Of a stretch of DNA of 64,000 nucleotides, positions 10,628-18,467 are shown piece by piece. Below the pieces are notes generated by a model. That model made no database searches, was not told the DNA's origin, and worked only from the letters and a program-made list of their open reading frames with translations. A program made the position numbers and the translations under genes. The first letter of the stretch is position 1. Each line of letters starts with the position of its first letter. This DNA comes from Halogeometricum sp. S3BR5-2 (GTDB lineage: Archaea > Halobacteriota > Halobacteria > Halobacteriales > Haloferacaceae): contig NZ_JAMQOQ010000004.1 of the NCBI RefSeq assembly GCF_031624635.1, positions 310,001 to 374,000 on the forward strand, in the 5' to 3' direction.

Positions 10628-11284
10628 TCACTCGGCCTCGGCCCGTCCGACCCGTTCTCGGCCCGTCCGTCCGCTGCCGTCGGACAGCGCGGCCGACAGG
10701 AGCGTTCGTTCGGCCTTCCGGAGGTGTTCGTGCAGCGTCGCGCGACTGATGCCCAGTTCCTCGGCGAGGCGCTCGTTCGTTATCTTCCGCGGCCAGTCGT
10801 AGTACCCGCGCGCGAGGGCTTCGGTCGCGACTTCCCGCTGGCGGTCGGTGACGGGCGAGTCCGCCCCGTCGCTGAACTCCGTGAGCCGACCAAGCGTGAC
10901 GGTTCCGAACTCCCCCAAATCGTCGATGACGTCCCGGAGGTGGTCGCGCCGGAAGACGAGCACGTTGTACTCCCGTTGTCTCCCCGAGACGGTGTTCGAC
11001 CGGCGGAGCGTGCCGTGGTTCCGGTAGATGGCGGAGTACGCCCCGCAGGAGGGCTTGGTCACGAGGAGGTTCTCAGCGTCGAGACGCTGGACGTGTTCGA
11101 CGCGGTCGGTCGCTTCGAGTTCGGCCTGGAAGTCGTCGGCGTGCGCCCCCGCCCGGAGGACGAACGTGACGACGCCGTTCTGTAGCTCCTCGATTTCGAT
11201 TTCGATGGGGGCGTCGACGCCCGCCGTGAGTCGCCTGAGCACGCACTCGCGGTGCTGCGTGAAGTGTATGGTCGCGATGAACAT
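10628..11284 (-). CDS. HTH-10 (bacterio-opsin activator-like) transcriptional regulator
   Basis: A 218-residue regulator of the haloarchaeal Bat-like type. The N-terminal 150 residues form a sensor-like domain (MFIATIHFTQHRECVLRRLT, later LLVTKPSCGAYSAIYRNHGT). The C-terminal HTH-10 domain is canonical: TDRQREVATEALARGYYDWP followed by ERLAEELGISRATLHEHLRK and AERTLLSAAL. The ATG at 11284 is the natural start of the sensor domain. It is divergent from the hydantoinase operon with 153 bases between the start codons, so it may control that operon. A basic tail (GRTGRERVGRAEAE) follows the DNA-binding domain. Ligand unknown. Confidence 0.9.
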   Translation of the reverse strand: MFIATIHFTQHRECVLRRLTAGVDAPIEIEIEELQNGVVTFVLRAGAHADDFQAELEATDRVEHVQRLDAENLLVTKPSCGAYSAIYRNHGTLRRSNTVSGRQREYNVLVFRRDHLRDVIDDLGEFGTVTLGRLTEFSDGADSPVTDRQREVATEALARGYYDWPRKITNERLAEELGISRATLHEHLRKAERTLLSAALSDGSGRTGRERVGRAEAE

Positions 11285-11437: not shown

Positions 11438-13501
11438 ATGACATACAACCTCGGGGTCGACGTCGGCGGGACGTTCACCGACGTCATCGTCTTCGACGAG
11501 ACGACCCGCGAACTCACGATAGACAAGGTGCTCTCGACGCCCGCGAACCCCGACGAGGGGGTGCTCCGCGGCGTCGAGGAGGCGACGGAGAAGGCGGGGA
11601 CGTCGGTGGCGGAACTGGACCTGCTGTTCCATGGCACGACGGTGGTGACGAACATGCTGTTGGAGGAGACGGGGTCGCGCGTCGGCCTCCTCACGACCGA
11701 GGGGCACGAGGACATCCTTCACCTGGCGCGGGCGTGGACGCCGGGACCGCTGTACGGGTGGATGGGCATGGAGAAGCCGAACCCGCTCGCAGACCTCGCG
11801 GACACGCGGGGCGTCGCCGGCCGGATTCGCTCGCCCGGCGGAGAAGAGTCCGAACCGCTGGACGAGGAGGGGGTCAGGGAGGCGGTCACCGACCTCGCCG
11901 ACGCGGGGGTCGAAGCGCTGACCGTGGCGCTCTTGAACTCGTATCTGAACCCCGCCCACGAGGAGCGCATCCGCGACATCGCGGCGGAGGTGGCGCCCGA
12001 CCTGCCGGTGTCCGTCTCCTCCGACATTGTCCCCGAGTACGGCGAGTACGAGCGGACGCTGACGACCGTCATCAACGACTACGCGCGCCCGACGGTCATC
12101 CGCTACCTCGACGACCTGGACGACTCGCTCGCGGCGGCGGGGTCGTCGGCGACGATGAACGTCGTCCGCTCGGACGGCGGGCTGATGAGTTCGGCGGCGG
12201 CCAAGGAGCGACCGGTCGAACTCGCGCTCTCCGGACCGAGCGGCGGGGTGGTCGGCGCGGCGACCATCGCCGCGAAGAAGGGTGTCCCCGACGTGCTGAC
12301 GCTCGATATGGGCGGTACCTCGACGGACGTCTCGCTCGTCGAGGGCGGGACGCCGGAGACGACGCGGCGGACGAAGGTGGGCTACCGGGAGTTCACCTCC
12401 CGGTCGGTCGACGTGAACACCGTCGGCGCCGGCGGCGGCTCTATCGCCCGCGTCCAACTGAACGGCTCGCTACAGGTCGGCCCCGAGAGCGCGGGCGCCG
12501 ACCCCGGCCCGGCCTGTTACGGGCAGGGCGGCGAGGACCCGACGGTGACCGACGCGAACGTCGTCCTCGGGCGCATCCCGCCGTCGGTCCGACTCGGCGG
12601 TCGGATGGAACTCGACCGGGAGGCCGCTCGCGACGCGGTGGCGACCGTCGCCGAGGAACGTGACACGACCGTCGAGGAGGCCGCCCAGGCCGTCCTCGAC
12701 ATCGTCAACGAGAACATGCACGGCGCGCTCCGGGTCGTCAGCGTCGAACGCGGCTACGACCCCCGCGAGTTCGGCCTCGTCGCCTTCGGCGGCGCCGGCC
12801 CGATGCACGCGAACGCCCTCGCGGACGTGATGGGCGCGTACCCCCTCGTCGTCCCCCCCGGCCCCGGCGTGATGTCCGCGTTCGGCTTTCTCACCTCCGA
12901 CGTGCAGAACGAGTTCGCGGAGACGTACCTGGAGACGGAGGACGACGTCGACGGCGACGACGTGGCCGAGAAACTCGACGCCCTCGAAGCGGAAGCGGAC
13001 GAGTGGCTGGCCTCCGAGGGCGTCGACGAAACCGACCGCTCCTTCGAACACTACGCCGAGTGCCGGTACTTCAGACAGGACATCCAGATGTCGATTCCGG
13101 TCGACGTGACGAACCTGCGCGGCGAGACGGGACTCGCGGAGATAAAGGGCGACTTCGAGGCGCGACACGACAGGCGGTTCGGTTTCTCGCTCGACGCGCC
13201 GTTGGAGATAGCGAGTCTCCGCGTCGTCGGGAAGGGAGCCATGCAGGGCGTCACCATCGAGAAACGGGAGACGGCCGGCGCCGACCCGAGCGACGCCGAA
13301 GTCGACGTCGCGGAGGTGTACTTCCGCGGCGAGTACCGGGAGACGCCCGTCTACGACCGCGGCGAACTCCGGTCGGGCAACAGGCTCGACGGACCGGCCG
13401 TCGTCGTCGACGACGACTCGACCCTCGTGGTCCAACCGGACCACGTCGCGCGGGTCGACCGCTACGGAAACGTCGAGATAACCAGAGGAGAGAGCCAATG
13501 A
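11438..13501 (+). CDS. hyuA: Hydantoinase/oxoprolinase subunit A (HyuA)
   Basis: The 687-residue ATP-binding subunit of the hydantoinase A / oxoprolinase family, which couples ATP hydrolysis to opening of cyclic amides (hydantoins, 5-oxoproline) or to carboxylation of ketones. The acetate-kinase-like nucleotide fold is visible at both ends: GVDVGGTFTDVIVFDE at residues 5-20, LFHGTTVVTNMLLEETG at about 65, and LTLDMGGTSTDVSLVEGG near 288. VSVERGYDPREFGLVAFGGA near residue 430 is also a family hallmark. Length is normal. The stop overlaps the start of the B subunit (ATGA at 13498-13501), implying coupled translation. The true substrate is not defined by sequence; the amidase and lyase downstream suggest a nitrogen heterocycle. 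Confidence 0.93.
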   Translation: MTYNLGVDVGGTFTDVIVFDETTRELTIDKVLSTPANPDEGVLRGVEEATEKAGTSVAELDLLFHGTTVVTNMLLEETGSRVGLLTTEGHEDILHLARAWTPGPLYGWMGMEKPNPLADLADTRGVAGRIRSPGGEESEPLDEEGVREAVTDLADAGVEALTVALLNSYLNPAHEERIRDIAAEVAPDLPVSVSSDIVPEYGEYERTLTTVINDYARPTVIRYLDDLDDSLAAAGSSATMNVVRSDGGLMSSAAAKERPVELALSGPSGGVVGAATIAAKKGVPDVLTLDMGGTSTDVSLVEGGTPETTRRTKVGYREFTSRSVDVNTVGAGGGSIARVQLNGSLQVGPESAGADPGPACYGQGGEDPTVTDANVVLGRIPPSVRLGGRMELDREAARDAVATVAEERDTTVEEAAQAVLDIVNENMHGALRVVSVERGYDPREFGLVAFGGAGPMHANALADVMGAYPLVVPPGPGVMSAFGFLTSDVQNEFAETYLETEDDVDGDDVAEKLDALEAEADEWLASEGVDETDRSFEHYAECRYFRQDIQMSIPVDVTNLRGETGLAEIKGDFEARHDRRFGFSLDAPLEIASLRVVGKGAMQGVTIEKRETAGADPSDAEVDVAEVYFRGEYRETPVYDRGELRSGNRLDGPAVVVDDDSTLVVQPDHVARVDRYGNVEITRGESQ

Positions 13502-15366
13502 ACGGAGAGAACACGGACGAGACCCCCGACTTCGTCGGCGACCACGACGTCGACCGAACCACGCTGGACATCATCGAGAGCACGCTGTCGAACACCCGAT
13601 ACGAGATGGACCGGGTGCTGGAGACGACGGCTATCAGCCCCGTCATCCGCGAGCAGTCCGATCAGTTCCCCCTCATCGCCGACGCGGAGGGGCGCATGGT
13701 GATGGGGCAGTTCGGGTCGGCCATCGACACCATCCTCGAACACTCGCCGTTCGAGGTGTCGGACCTCGAAGACGGCGACGTGATAGCGACGAACGACCCG
13801 TACGCCTGCGCCGGCGCGGTGTCGCACACGCCGGACATGCTCCTCCTCAGACCCGTCTTCTACGACGGCGACCTCGTGGGTTACGCCAGCCAGTGGGGGA
13901 ACCTGATGGACGTGGGCGGGAAGACGCCCGGCAGCATGCCCGTGCAGGCGCGGACGATATTCGAGGAGGGGATGCGCCTGCCGCCGGTGAAACTGTACAA
14001 GCGCGGCGAGGTGGACGACGAACTGCTGGAGTCGTTCGCGCACAACACGCGCCTGCCCGACCACGCCGAGGCCGACATCAAGGCCCTCGCGGCGGGGACG
14101 AAGGCCGCCGAGACGCGCATCCGCGAACTCTGCGACCGCTTCGGGAAGGAGACCTACCTCGAAGCGTGCGACGCCATCCTCGACCGCACCCGCGAGGGGA
14201 TGATAGACCTCATCCGCGAGTTCGTTCCGGAGGGGGAGCGCTACACGTTCGAGGACCGCGTCGACGACGACGGGATGGGCAACGGTCCGATCACGCTCCA
14301 CCTCGAAATCTACCGCGAGGGCGATACGGTCCACCTCGATTGGACCGGCACGGACGCGCAGGTGCCGGGGACGGTGAACTTCCTCCTGAACGAGAAGATG
14401 TTCAAGATGTTCACCGGGGTGTTCCTCATCATGGCGTTCGACCCCCTCCTGACGTTCAACGACGGCTACTACGACCTCTTCGAGGTGACGCTCCCCGAGG
14501 GGTCGGTCGTCCAACCGGAATTCCCGGCGGCCCTCGGCAACCGCCTGCCGACGATGGCCCGGCAGTTCGACGTGCTGCAGGCGACGTTCTCGAAACTCAT
14601 CGACGACTTCTCCGTCGCCGGAAGCTACGGCACGTCACCGAACCTCGTCTACGCCGGCACCGACTCGGAGGGCAACGACTTCCAGATGCTCGAAATCCTC
14701 TACGGGGGAATACCGGCCCGCCCCGGCGGCGACGGCCTCGACGGCCACTCGTGGTGGCCGATGTTCCGCACCGTGCCGGCGGAGTACCAGGAGGCGTACT
14801 ACCCGCTCTCCATCGACGAGTACAGCACGCGCGCCGACACCGGCGGCCCGGGCGAGTTCCGCGGCGGCCACGGCATCACGAAGGTGTACACCTTCGAGGA
14901 GGACGGCGCGATAACGTTCCAGGACGACCGCGCGCACACCTACCCGTGGGGCGTCGACGGCGGGTCCCACGCGCGGACGAGCGAGAAGACGCTGATACGC
15001 GCCGACGGCACCGAAGCGGAGTTACCCTCGAAGGTCGAAAACGTCACCGTGGAAGCGGGCGACAAACTCGTCTTCAGCACCGCCGGCGGCGGCGGACTGG
15101 GCGACCCTCTCGACCGCGACTCCGCCGTCGTCGCCGGCGAAGTCGAACGCGGACTCGTCTCCGAGCAGGCCGCCCGAGAGGCCTACGGCGTCGTCCTCGA
15201 CGGCGAGGGCGGCGTCGACGAGGCCGCCACCGCCGACCGACGCGAGGAGGTCCGCGCGACCCGCGAGGACCCCGGACAGTTCGACTACGGACCGCTCCCG
15301 CCCGAGGACGAACTCGGAGAACGCATCGCCGAGGAACGGCGGGCGTTCGAGCGCGGACGGGAGTGA
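13498..15366 (+). CDS. hyuB: Hydantoinase/oxoprolinase subunit B (HyuB)
   Basis: The 622-residue partner subunit of HyuA. Family features are DRTTLDIIESTLSNTRYEMD near the N-terminus, DVIATNDPYACAGAVSHTPD near residue 97, and the C-terminal glycine-rich GGPGEFRGGHGITKVY and VFSTAGGGGLGDPLDRD. The ATG at 13498 overlaps the hyuA stop and gives MNGENTDETPDFVGDHDVD. HyuA and HyuB form a heteromeric ATP-dependent amidohydrolase in the cytoplasm. The isochorismatase-fold gene starts 25 bases after its stop, in the same apparent operon. N-methylhydantoinase, 5-oxoprolinase and acetophenone carboxylase subunits all belong here, so substrate assignment depends on context. Confidence 0.93.
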   Translation: MNGENTDETPDFVGDHDVDRTTLDIIESTLSNTRYEMDRVLETTAISPVIREQSDQFPLIADAEGRMVMGQFGSAIDTILEHSPFEVSDLEDGDVIATNDPYACAGAVSHTPDMLLLRPVFYDGDLVGYASQWGNLMDVGGKTPGSMPVQARTIFEEGMRLPPVKLYKRGEVDDELLESFAHNTRLPDHAEADIKALAAGTKAAETRIRELCDRFGKETYLEACDAILDRTREGMIDLIREFVPEGERYTFEDRVDDDGMGNGPITLHLEIYREGDTVHLDWTGTDAQVPGTVNFLLNEKMFKMFTGVFLIMAFDPLLTFNDGYYDLFEVTLPEGSVVQPEFPAALGNRLPTMARQFDVLQATFSKLIDDFSVAGSYGTSPNLVYAGTDSEGNDFQMLEILYGGIPARPGGDGLDGHSWWPMFRTVPAEYQEAYYPLSIDEYSTRADTGGPGEFRGGHGITKVYTFEEDGAITFQDDRAHTYPWGVDGGSHARTSEKTLIRADGTEAELPSKVENVTVEAGDKLVFSTAGGGGLGDPLDRDSAVVAGEVERGLVSEQAAREAYGVVLDGEGGVDEAATADRREEVRATREDPGQFDYGPLPPEDELGERIAEERRAFERGRE

Positions 15367-15391
15367 CTCCCCGGGGGTCCCGACAGAAACC

Positions 15392-16042
15392 ATGAACTGG
15401 GCACACGAGTTCGGCGCCGCCGACGGCTACGCCGACTACGAGGAGTCCGACTTCGGCGGGAGCGTCGGCCTCGGCGACCGGCCGGCCCTAGTCGTCGTCG
15501 ACCTGATAAACGCCTTCACCGACCCCGAGACGAAACTCGGGTCGGACGTGACGGGCGTGGTCGAACAGACCGCTCGACTGCTCGCCGCCTTCCGCGACCG
15601 CGACCTGCCGCGGTATTTCACCACCGTCGCGTTCGAGGAGTCGTACGGCGACGCGGGACGCTTCGTCGAGAAGGTACCCGCCCTGCGCGAGTTGCGACTC
15701 GGCACCGAGGCCGTCGCGGTCGACGACCGGGTCGCCCCCGAGGGTGACGAGCGGGTCGTCCTGAAGAAGTACGCCAGCGCGTTCTTCGGGACGGACCTCG
15801 CCACGGAACTGACGACCCACGGCGCGGACACGCTCGTCGTCGCCGGCGTCACGACGAGCGGATGCGTCCGCGCGACGGCCGTCGACAGCCTCCAGCACGG
15901 CTACCGGACGGTCGTCCCCGCCGACGCGGTGGGCGACCGGGCGGAGGGACCGCACCGCGCCAACCTCTACGACATCGACGCGAAGTACGGCGACGTGGTG
16001 ACCACCGACGCCGTGCTCGAACACCTCTCTACCGATGGATAA
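15392..16042 (+). CDS. Isochorismatase-fold cysteine amidohydrolase
   Basis: This 216-residue cysteine hydrolase has its catalytic triad visible: Asp in ALVVVDLINAFTDPE, Lys in VVLKKYASAFFGTDL, and Cys in VVAGVTTSGCVRATAVDSLQ preceded by the cis-peptide region. The N-terminal DYEESDFGGSVGLGDRPAL resembles N-carbamoylsarcosine amidohydrolases and maleamate amidases more than true isochorismatases. In creatinine degradation an N-methylhydantoinase (HyuA/HyuB type) makes N-carbamoylsarcosine, which an enzyme of this fold hydrolyses to sarcosine, CO2 and ammonia, so the operon order fits such a step. That is inference from context. Its stop overlaps the start of a 47-codon ORF (ATGGATAA at 16035-16042). 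Confidence 0.88.
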   Translation: MNWAHEFGAADGYADYEESDFGGSVGLGDRPALVVVDLINAFTDPETKLGSDVTGVVEQTARLLAAFRDRDLPRYFTTVAFEESYGDAGRFVEKVPALRELRLGTEAVAVDDRVAPEGDERVVLKKYASAFFGTDLATELTTHGADTLVVAGVTTSGCVRATAVDSLQHGYRTVVPADAVGDRAEGPHRANLYDIDAKYGDVVTTDAVLEHLSTDG

Positions 16043-16178
16043 CGACACTCACCCTACCCACGACGCGAACCAGACCCGACGCACCGATTCGACTCCGACC
16101 TCGGCGGACGCCGACTCGACGCCGGCGCCCACGCCGACGACTCCGCCCCGCGCCGACCGACCGGGGGTGCGACGGTGA
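16035..16178 (+). CDS. Possible coupled small ORF, 47 residues, Thr/Pro/Asp-rich
   Basis: A frame of 47 codons starts at an ATG inside the end of the amidohydrolase gene (overlap 16035-16042) and stops at a TGA overlapping the GTG start of the next gene (GTGA at 16175-16178). Its product (beginning MDNDTHPTHDANQTRR) is low-complexity, rich in Thr, Pro, Asp and Arg, with no domain, signal or membrane segment. The precise overlap at both ends suggests translational coupling through the spacer. It may be a genuine small protein or only a relay that carries ribosomes to the downstream GTG. Chance is possible, because GC-rich spacers often stay open. Confidence 0.4.
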   Translation: MDNDTHPTHDANQTRRTDSTPTSADADSTPAPTPTTPPRADRPGVRR

Positions 16179-17116
16179 CGGACACCGGCGCGAGGCTCAG
16201 GGAGTTGCTCGCCCGCGACGAACCGCTCGTCTGCCCGGGCGTCCACGACCCGCTGACGGCCGCCGTGGCCGACGCCGTCGGCTTCGACGCCGTCTACATG
16301 ACCGGCTACGGCACCTCGCTGTCGAAGATCGGCTACCCCGACGCGGGCTTCATCACGATGCCGGAGATGATAGACAACGCCGCGAACATCCAAGAGCGGG
16401 TGGACGTGCCGCTCATCGCCGACGCGGACAACGGCTACGGCAACGCGACCAACGTCGTCCGAACCGTGCGCGAGTACGTCAAGGCGGGCGTCGGCGCCAT
16501 CCACATCGAGGACCAGACGTTCCCCAAGCGCTGCGGGCACACGAAGGGTCGGCAGGTGATTCCGCGCGAGGAGGCGGTCGGGAAGATACGGGCCGCGGCG
16601 GACGTCCGCGACGAGCGAAGCGAGGAGTTCGTCCTCATCGCCCGGACCGACGCGCGCGGCACCGGCGACGGCTCCCTCGACGAAGCCATCGGCCGGGTGA
16701 ACGACTTCCTCGACGCCGGGGCCGACGTGGCCTTCGTCGAGGGGCCGACGGACGGGGACGAACTCCGGCGCATCGGCGAGGCGGTGGACGGTCCCCTCGT
16801 GTACAACTTCGTCGGCGACCTCGGCTCCTCGCCGTACGTCGACCTCGACTCGCTGGACGAGTGGGGGTTCGACCTCGTCATCTTCCCCGTCGCGTCGACG
16901 CTGTCGACCATCGCGAACGTTTACGCCGACCTCGACGCGTTCGCCGAGGACCCCGTCGCGGCGATGCGCGGCATCGACGACGCGTTCGGGGAGACACCGG
17001 TCGGGAGCCTCCACGAGTTCTCCGGCTTCCCCGAGGTGGTCGAGTGGGAGCGCGAGTACCTCCCCGAGGAAGACCAGGACAAGTACAGCGGGTCGCTCGG
17101 CGACGACGTCGAGTGA
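16175..17116 (+). CDS. Isocitrate lyase / PEP mutase family C-C lyase
   Basis: This 313-residue TIM-barrel enzyme has the family core AVYMTGYGTSLSKIGYPDAG, the Mg-binding ADADNGYGNA, IHIEDQTFPKRCGHTKGR with the catalytic loop KRCGH, and LIARTDARGTG. The intact KRCGH loop points to a lyase of the methylisocitrate / dimethylmalate / oxaloacetate-decarboxylase type rather than phosphonate chemistry. It would cleave a hydroxy-dicarboxylic acid in the cytoplasm. The GTG start at 16175 fits the family opening RLRELLARDEPLVCPGVHDP. It is the last gene of the hydantoinase operon and converges on the beta-helix gene with 40 bases between stops. Substrate unknown; a ring-opened carbon skeleton from the upstream steps is the contextual guess. 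Confidence 0.9.
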   Translation: MTDTGARLRELLARDEPLVCPGVHDPLTAAVADAVGFDAVYMTGYGTSLSKIGYPDAGFITMPEMIDNAANIQERVDVPLIADADNGYGNATNVVRTVREYVKAGVGAIHIEDQTFPKRCGHTKGRQVIPREEAVGKIRAAADVRDERSEEFVLIARTDARGTGDGSLDEAIGRVNDFLDAGADVAFVEGPTDGDELRRIGEAVDGPLVYNFVGDLGSSPYVDLDSLDEWGFDLVIFPVASTLSTIANVYADLDAFAEDPVAAMRGIDDAFGETPVGSLHEFSGFPEVVEWEREYLPEEDQDKYSGSLGDDVE

Positions 17117-17156: not shown

Positions 17157-18467
17157 TCAGTGGTCGTCGACGTTTGGTCGAGGGCAGGACTCGGCGGCGG
17201 TCACGCCCGTCGCGTCGGCGCCGACGACGGCCTCGCCCGAACAGGTGATTCGCGTGTCCTCGAACCGCCCGGTGCCGTCCTCGAACACGACGCCGTGCTG
17301 TCCGTCGGCGTCCAACCGGAGACAGCAGCCGTCGAACACCGTTCCGTCGCGCCCGCGGACGCGGACCGCGGCGCCTCCGGCCCCGCCGTAGCCCGTGACC
17401 GAGAGATTCGAGAACGTGACGCGGGTGTCGTCCCACTGGACGTTCGGCGACCCGGCGCTTATGACCTGTCCCACGTCGTCCGAGGTGACGCGGACCCGCG
17501 TGTCCCTCACGACGGCGGCGCCGACGCTGTTGCCCACCACGACGGCGCCGGAGGCGCGCCCCGTCTCCATGCGGATGTCGCAGTCCTCGACGAGCAGGTT
17601 CGTTCGGTTGGCCAGCCAGACACCGCGGGCGTTGACGACGGGGTCGGGTTCGCTGCCCGACCGCGGCATGATGTCGTATCCGCGTGAGTCCCACGTGTCG
17701 CCCGAGGGGTTGCGCTCGTTGACGACGGTGACGCCCTTCACCGAGGAGTCGGTCGTTCCGATCCGGACGTTGGCGATGTTGTTGTTCTTGTAGACGCCGC
17801 CGAGGACGTGTACCTCGCCGTCCCCGCGCTCGGTCGTCTCCGTCCCCCTGTAGGAACCGACGTAGCCGGGGGAGGACGCGTAGAGGCCGTTGTCCGACCA
17901 GTTCCACACCTCGCAGTCGACCACGTCCAGGCGACCGGCGTGCGAGTCGGCGACGAAGATGCCGTGCGACGGCGAGTCGTACCCGCTCCCGTCGCGGGCG
18001 TAGAACCGTTCGACCGTCCCGACGCCGTCGGGGTCGTCGACGGCGACGGCCAACCCGTCCACCGAGTCGGGGGCGATGCCCCGCACGCGGACGTCCTCGA
18101 CGTGGAAGTCGCCCTCGCGGGCCATGAGTCGAAGCGACCCGCCGTACCCCTCTCGGGTGAAGTCGAACTCGATTCCCGAGACGACGTAGTCGCCGCCGGT
18201 CTTCAACAGCAGCGTCCAGTCCTCCGAGTCGGAGACGGGTTCGGCCGGAACGAACACGGGGTCGGCGCCGTCGGCGGCGACGAGGCCGACGTTGTCGGAC
18301 CGAATCCAACAGGAGTCGACGAGGTACCGACCCGTCGGGAACTCGACGCGGGTGCCGGATTCGACCGTCGCCAGCGTCTCGTCGACGACGGCCCCCTCGT
18401 CGGGGTCCAATCCGAGGTCGTCGACGGCGTCGACGGTGCGGTCGAACGTGATGTCGTGGCGCGTCAT
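17157..18467 (-). CDS. Right-handed parallel beta-helix (pectate-lyase-like) protein without signal peptide
   Basis: This 436-residue protein consists largely of short beta-rungs typical of pectate-lyase/polygalacturonase-like helices: GGDYVVSGIEFDFT, DFHVEDVRVRGIAP, GRLDVVDCEVWNWSDNGLYA, VHVLGGVYKNNNIANVRIG, NLLVEDCDIRMETG. The start (MTRHDITFDRTVDAVDDLGL) carries no hydrophobic or twin-arginine signal, so it appears cytoplasmic, odd for a fold usually found in secreted polysaccharide enzymes. The opening DRTVDAVDDLGLDPDEGAVVDETLATVESG resembles haloarchaeal proteins of the same fold, some of which occur near sugar-acid or polysaccharide loci. I cannot place catalytic residues. It sits between the hydantoinase operon and the galactonate cluster and is transcribed toward the former. 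Confidence 0.8.
   Translation of the reverse strand: MTRHDITFDRTVDAVDDLGLDPDEGAVVDETLATVESGTRVEFPTGRYLVDSCWIRSDNVGLVAADGADPVFVPAEPVSDSEDWTLLLKTGGDYVVSGIEFDFTREGYGGSLRLMAREGDFHVEDVRVRGIAPDSVDGLAVAVDDPDGVGTVERFYARDGSGYDSPSHGIFVADSHAGRLDVVDCEVWNWSDNGLYASSPGYVGSYRGTETTERGDGEVHVLGGVYKNNNIANVRIGTTDSSVKGVTVVNERNPSGDTWDSRGYDIMPRSGSEPDPVVNARGVWLANRTNLLVEDCDIRMETGRASGAVVVGNSVGAAVVRDTRVRVTSDDVGQVISAGSPNVQWDDTRVTFSNLSVTGYGGAGGAAVRVRGRDGTVFDGCCLRLDADGQHGVVFEDGTGRFEDTRITCSGEAVVGADATGVTAAESCPRPNVDDH

Follow-up and report, generated by a model that had tools for sequence, protein, structure and literature searches.

A cassette of four genes in Halogeometricum sp. S3BR5-2, namely hyuA, hyuB, an isochorismatase-fold amidase gene and a C-C lyase gene, would, as judged from its sequence and its conservation, encode the enzymes of a short route by which a five-membered cyclic imide is broken down, a reading to which we give a probability of about 0.52. 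The imide would most likely be an alkyl-substituted maleimide or hydroxysuccinimide, any single named substrate being less probable than the route itself. The cassette lies in the window, by which we mean the whole stretch of 64,000 nucleotides that was analysed, and its features are listed in Table 1.

Table 1. The cassette and the genes on either side of it, with positions given within the window
Feature	Coordinates	Strand	Description	Families or matches
HTH_10 regulator	10628..11284	-	Bacterio-opsin-activator type, divergent from hyuA	PF04967 (E 9.7e-22)
hyuA	11438..13501	+	ATP-binding subunit of ATP-dependent cyclic amide hydrolase	PF05378, PF01968, PF19278
hyuB	13498..15366	+	Hydrolytic subunit	PF02538, full length
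Amidase	15392..16042	+	Isochorismatase-fold cysteine amidase, predicted dicarboxylate half-amidase	PF00857
Amidase motifs			VVVDL, KKYASAF, TTSGCVRATAVD, DRAEGPH	Common to the maleamate amidases 4l07 and 3ot4
Lyase	16175..17116	+	ICL/PEP-mutase-superfamily C-C lyase, predicted 2-alkylmalate lyase	PF13714 (E 4.8e-50), PF00463
436-aa protein	17157..18467	-	Convergent with lyase	

The sequence-only reading had described a row of HyuA, HyuB, amidase and lyase genes, overlapping or nearly so, with an intact KRCGH loop in the lyase. The row was confirmed, as all four ORFs are intact, run in the same direction over positions 11438-17116 and belong to clear families, and the loop was found at residues 118-122 of the lyase. 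Close packing holds for the first three genes, with a 4-nt overlap between hyuA and hyuB and a gap of 25 nt between hyuB and the amidase gene, but the lyase gene, which starts with GTG at 16175, is joined only loosely after a gap of 132 nt (52-116 nt in nine related loci). An orthologue of the HTH_10 regulator (66-79% identical) occupies the same divergent position in most lyase-type loci, and most of the CoA-transferase-type loci described below have a relative of it (39-53% identical) close to the cassette. The host genome (4.66 Mb, 22 contigs) has one other lyase, 38% identical. PADLOC returned no match for a defence function. The 436-aa protein beyond the lyase had no Pfam match at E 1e-6 and, judged by eye, has the look of a parallel beta-helix.

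Conservation was surveyed in 293 genomes of the order. hyuAB and the amidase gene (69-100% identical) were found together in 28 of them; HyuA with at least 69% identity occurred in 28 genomes, and exactly those 28 had an amidase with at least 71% identity. The full order hyuA-hyuB-amidase-lyase was identical in 11 of the 293 genomes with different flanking genes, which indicates that the order is not due to chance. Since the genes outside the cassette vary between genomes and plasmids carry several of the copies, the cassette appears to travel as one piece. In this survey of the gene order, which the sequence-only reading had suggested, hyuAB was accompanied by the amidase in all 28 genomes, whereas the lyase joins them in 11 only and is a non-obligate partner. 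A close lyase (at least 60% identity) was present in 20 genomes, in 6 of which no cassette adjoined it, showing that the lyase also works outside the cassette context, and one genome with a close lyase has only an amidase remnant. In Natrinema (L036, L038, L039 and L008) the lyase is kept and hyuAB is missing, with a broken amidase remnant upstream in some loci, an apparent decay of the cassette in which the lyase was retained.

Two forms of the cassette were distinguished by their last step. Form A, that of the window, ends in the lyase (11 genomes), and in form B (17 genomes) genes for a class III CoA-transferase (PF02515) and an IPMS/HMGL-like enzyme (PF00682 with PF22617) are no more than about 6 kb away from hyuAB-amidase. 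Mostly this pair comes immediately downstream, with the related HTH_10 regulator after it. At E 1e-60 the lyase was absent from 17 of the 28 cassette genomes, and none of the 28 had the core cassette with neither the lyase nor the CoA-transferase/IPMS-like pair; in a single genome (G040) both are present, on separate contigs. Fisher's test on this exchange gave p 8e-7, a value uncorrected for kinship among genomes that are not independent, and in the HyuB tree the two forms are separated by only one or two evolutionary changes. To the letter, the 17 cassettes without a lyase and the six genomes with a close lyase but no cassette go against the earlier expectation that related genomes would keep the lyase with hyuAB, yet what replaces it supports the chemistry that had been proposed. 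ICL-fold lyases, IPMS-like enzymes and HMG-CoA-lyase-like enzymes all make or break a C-C bond of a hydroxy-dicarboxylate, and the occurrence of three such different enzymes at one place points to a common type of substrate, a 2-hydroxy-dicarboxylate. Because the lyase is replaced by a CoA-transferase together with IPMS/HMGL or HMG-CoA-lyase-type genes, the terminal substrate is probably a 2-alkylmalate-type acid, split directly in the window form or as its CoA ester. The IPMS-like enzyme has HxHDD in 13/13 copies examined, compared with HxHND in the homocitrate and isopropylmalate synthases 6ktq and 3rmj; this would fit the lyase direction, although it is no proof of it. Haloarchaeal class III CoA-transferases with dicarboxylates as substrates have been described (PMC5592240).

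Related loci were also found in bacteria, where the sampling consisted mostly of plasmid records. HyuAB relatives 48-61% identical occur in Rubrobacter (CoAT-HyuA-HyuB-amidase), Geobacillus (amidase-HyuA-HyuB-CoAT-HMGL, then an IS element and leuCD) and Acidiphilium (CoAT-HyuA-HyuB-amidase, with HMGL on the opposite strand), and the CoA-transferases of these loci are 39-43% identical to the haloarchaeal one. Since these outgroup loci carry the CoA-transferase, the lyase form looks derived. The leuC of Geobacillus has the profile score of an ordinary leucine LeuC, and the IS element lies between it and the cassette. Tistrella has an amidase 46.5% identical with a CoA-transferase and an HMG-CoA-lyase-type gene, and no HyuAB. 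A known counterpart of these tails is found in Chloroflexus, which uses an (R)-citramalate CoA-transferase and an (R)-citramalyl-CoA lyase. This pair consists of a class III CoA-transferase and an HMGL-fold lyase, as in form B, Geobacillus and Acidiphilium, but the haloarchaeal enzyme resembles IPMS and homocitrate synthase, not HMG-CoA lyase. One genome (G189) has a second, separate amidase/CoAT/HMGL arrangement (L155:12568-18124), in which genes for a FAD_binding_2 protein, an amidase (36%), an amidohydrolase, a CoA-transferase (49%) and an HMGL-like enzyme stand in a row. A larger cluster surrounds an orthologous lyase (67-74%) in Haladaptatus, Halegenticoccus and Natribaculum (L047:3667-19100, L048:5093-20900 and L049:8830-15960), with isochorismatase-type amidases, a luciferase-like monooxygenase and, in L047 and L048, PrpD, MaoC, acyl-CoA dehydrogenase and CoA-transferase III. 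This cluster, possibly a longer N-heterocycle pathway, was excluded as a third form of the cassette because its HyuAB belongs to a different clade (27-37% identity).

HyuA has intact ATP-site motifs, DVGGTFTD (8-15), DMGGTSTD (290-297) and GADPGP (353-358), which agree with the set DxGGTxTD, DxGGT and GxxPGP of ATP-dependent lactamases and hydantoinases as defined from the ATP site of CapA (PMC8453981). In HyuB, Asp55, His110 and Asp113 align with the CapB metal ligands Asp41, His99 and Asp102, and the fourth ligand, His124 of CapB, corresponds to Asn135 in the window and to Gln in N-methylhydantoinase 7hk5, the best solved structure by name for both subunits. Rubrobacter also has Asn at this position, as does each of the 26 further haloarchaeal copies that were read; as the related 7hk5 has Gln there, a loss of HyuB activity does not follow. 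CapAB caprolactamase and 5-oxoprolinases have the same two-subunit architecture and ATP motifs as the window pair. It differs from CapAB, however, in the Asn of HyuB, in the amidase that follows and in scores far below the caprolactamase NCBIfam equivalog cut-offs (523 and 220 bits for CapA and CapB vs 1000).

The window amidase contains VVVDL, KKYASAF, TTSGCVRA and DRAEGPH as in 4l07 and 3ot4, motifs whose function is predicted by likeness, and in these it is nearer to those two structures than to the classic N-carbamoylsarcosine amidase 1nba. In the amidase tree, 1nba groups with an Ancylobacter amidase (100/99), which adjoins HyuAB and a deaminase, and the window clade is separate; deeper clade order and nearest relatives had no resolution in this tree. 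The best solved structure by name is 'N-carbamoylsarcosine amidohydrolase' 26st, but it was rejected as proof of that activity, since in the tree it lies at zero branch length from the amidase in the phthalate operon of Rhodococcus RHA1, and the name that it bears may be a transferred annotation. Genes annotated 'N-carbamoylsarcosine amidohydrolase' are also present in phthalate operons of Arthrobacter, Rhodococcus and Citricoccus beside an ABC transporter (L170, L171 and L188), where a role as phthalamate half-amidase is more likely than one in creatinine breakdown. Other relatives, 42-47% identical, take the place of nicF in nicotinate (maleamate) operons. Maleamate amidohydrolases of nicotinate and nicotine breakdown (NicF, Ami) have the catalytic D-K-C set, TTSGCVRA and DRAxGPH in common with the window enzyme, although the identity of the nicF-place relatives goes no higher than that range and no pyridine ring-cleavage genes stand beside the window cassette. 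Its place outside the 1nba clade, its maleamate-amidase motifs and its relatives in nicotinate and phthalate operons together suggest that the window amidase probably hydrolyses a dicarboxylate half-amide, not a carbamoyl group.

This bears on the best-surviving alternative, in which the ring opened by HyuAB is that of a 5-substituted hydantoin or of N-methylhydantoin, the amidase takes off the carbamoyl group, as happens in creatinine breakdown, and the lyase is an addition that processes the freed carbon skeleton. The names of 7hk5 and 26st agree with it, as does the lack of the fourth metal-site His in both the window HyuB and 7hk5. We consider it unlikely, since 26st falls with the RHA1 phthalate-operon amidase and 1nba with Ancylobacter, away from the window clade, and since an amino acid product would leave the malate-type lyases and the CoA-transferase plus IPMS/HMGL enzymes unexplained. 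The route from creatinine through N-methylhydantoin, which resembles the cassette in that HyuAB adjoins an isochorismatase-fold amidase, was rejected because the window amidase is outside the CSHase (1nba) clade; the cassette also differs in ending in a C-C lyase or a CoA-transferase/IPMS-like pair.

The lyase contains TGYG, ADADNG, IHIEDQ, KRCGH and IARTDA, and has the features of ICL/PEP-mutase C-C lyases, which are the KRCGH/KKCGH loop, the Mg-site Asp pair, ED and ARTD. Its nearest solved structures are methylisocitrate lyase, CPEP mutase, dimethylmalate lyase, oxaloacetate acetylhydrolase and petal death protein. Oxaloacetate acetylhydrolases are marked by a Ser following a conserved Asn, and the window lyase lacks this Ser (YNF vs LNS in 3lye). 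A propionate/methylcitrate lyase was rejected, as the score was below the 2-methylisocitrate lyase (PrpB) cut-off of TIGR02317 (228.5 vs 354.4 bits) and no methylcitrate genes were recognised adjoining it. Relatives 36-63% identical adjoin LeuC/LeuD-like genes in many phyla, mostly in the order leuC-leuD-lyase; such operons (L050-L056 and L067-L078) are present in Acetomicrobium, Chloroflexota, Thermodesulfobacteriota and Burkholderiaceae. KRCGH is kept in L050 and L140, two of the nearest LeuCD-linked relatives, and is incomplete in some others (KRCGF in L178; KQCAQ in L067 of Burkholderiaceae).

The tail of the Eubacterium barkeri nicotinate pathway consists of methylitaconate isomerase, dimethylmaleate hydratase and 2,3-dimethylmalate lyase. 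The same parts (LeuCD-type hydratase, PrpF and a lyase relative) are found together in Halalkalicoccus FCH27 and a Clostridia genome, and 3fa3, named 2,3-dimethylmalate lyase, is among the closest structures to the window lyase. In the window, by contrast, neither PrpF nor LeuCD stands beside the lyase, and HyuAB and the amidase are foreign to the E. barkeri pathway. The leuC-leuD-lyase neighbourhoods, with PrpF as in the E. barkeri tail, point to alkylmaleate hydration followed by alkylmalate cleavage as the context of these lyase relatives.

That the lyase is instead an independent propionate/methylcitrate or oxaloacetate enzyme, which came to stand behind hyuAB-amidase, agrees with the six genomes in which it is cassette-free and the 17 in which the cassette lacks it. 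This seems to us quite improbable, given that the lyase is the last cassette gene in 11 genomes with otherwise unrelated flanks, that all cassettes lacking it have another module for alkylmalate cleavage, and that its score is below that for PrpB (228 vs 354 bits). A role of HyuAB as an ATP-dependent ketone carboxylase (acetone/acetophenone type) or amino-acid lactamase, with the amidase acting on a side chain, agrees with the matches of HyuA and HyuB to acetophenone carboxylase and caprolactamase models, though these are below cut-offs. It is very improbable, since the two-gene hydantoinase architecture has no extra carboxylase subunits, and since the constant pairing of the amidase with HyuAB in Halobacteria, Rubrobacter, Geobacillus and Acidiphilium fits two hydrolyses in succession on one ring.

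Returning to the imide route, the reactions and the substrate that we infer from the observed gene content, order, motifs, conservation and last-step exchange would be as follows. With ATP, HyuAB would activate one of the carbonyls of the imide ring and open the ring by hydrolysis to a half-amide, which the amidase would convert to the dicarboxylate and ammonia. Only if the ring is unsaturated would a LeuCD/aconitase-type hydratase then have to add water, giving the alkylmalate. The KRCGH lyase would then cleave the alkylmalate without the use of CoA, the products being a carboxylic acid and a 2-oxo acid, either pyruvate or glyoxylate, and in form B the class III CoA-transferase and the enzyme of IPMS/HMG-CoA-lyase fold would act on the CoA ester. 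The five-membered imide is suggested by the passage from a cyclic substrate through a half-amide to a malate/maleate-type acid. No hydratase was found in the 28 haloarchaeal cassettes, so that a maleimide ring would need a housekeeping LeuCD or aconitase; of the aconitase-family genes in the host genome, one LeuC-type and two others, none is near the cassette. A saturated hydroxy-imide would require no hydratase. Points that weigh against the route are this lack of a hydratase in the cassettes, the small number of changes behind the exchange of forms A and B, the cassette-free lyases, the replaced metal ligand of HyuB, the altered loops of some LeuCD-linked lyase relatives and the poor resolution of the amidase tree.

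Measured against the sequence-only reading, the proposed order of ATP-dependent ring opening, amide hydrolysis and C-C cleavage is supported by the cassette content and by the alkylmalate-cleaving replacement tails, and its view that the creatinine route does not fit holds, given the position of the amidase. Of its 'carbamoyl or amide' step, the amide part is favoured and the carbamoyl part disfavoured. It had offered hydantoins, creatinine, 5-oxoproline and pyrimidines as substrates; the tails point instead to a cyclic imide.

In a search of the literature on HyuA with maleamate, isochorismatase, HMG-CoA lyase and maleimide breakdown, no account of such a pathway was met. Tentatively, and with less confidence than we give the route itself, the cassette may represent an undescribed complete pathway for alkyl-substituted cyclic imides, in which HyuAB would serve as an ATP-dependent imidase. 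Haloarchaea and distant bacteria would carry this pathway on a mobile cassette, and different enzyme families would perform the alkylmalate cleavage at its end. If this is true, the maleimides left by tetrapyrrole breakdown are candidate substrates. Genes of the HyuA type abound in these archaea, with at least one strong match in 265/293 genomes, and few of them have a known substrate. For the HyuA studied here, the neighbouring genes, and above all the exchange of the last step, narrow the substrate to a cyclic imide that would yield an alkylmalate-type acid, which makes a direct assay possible.
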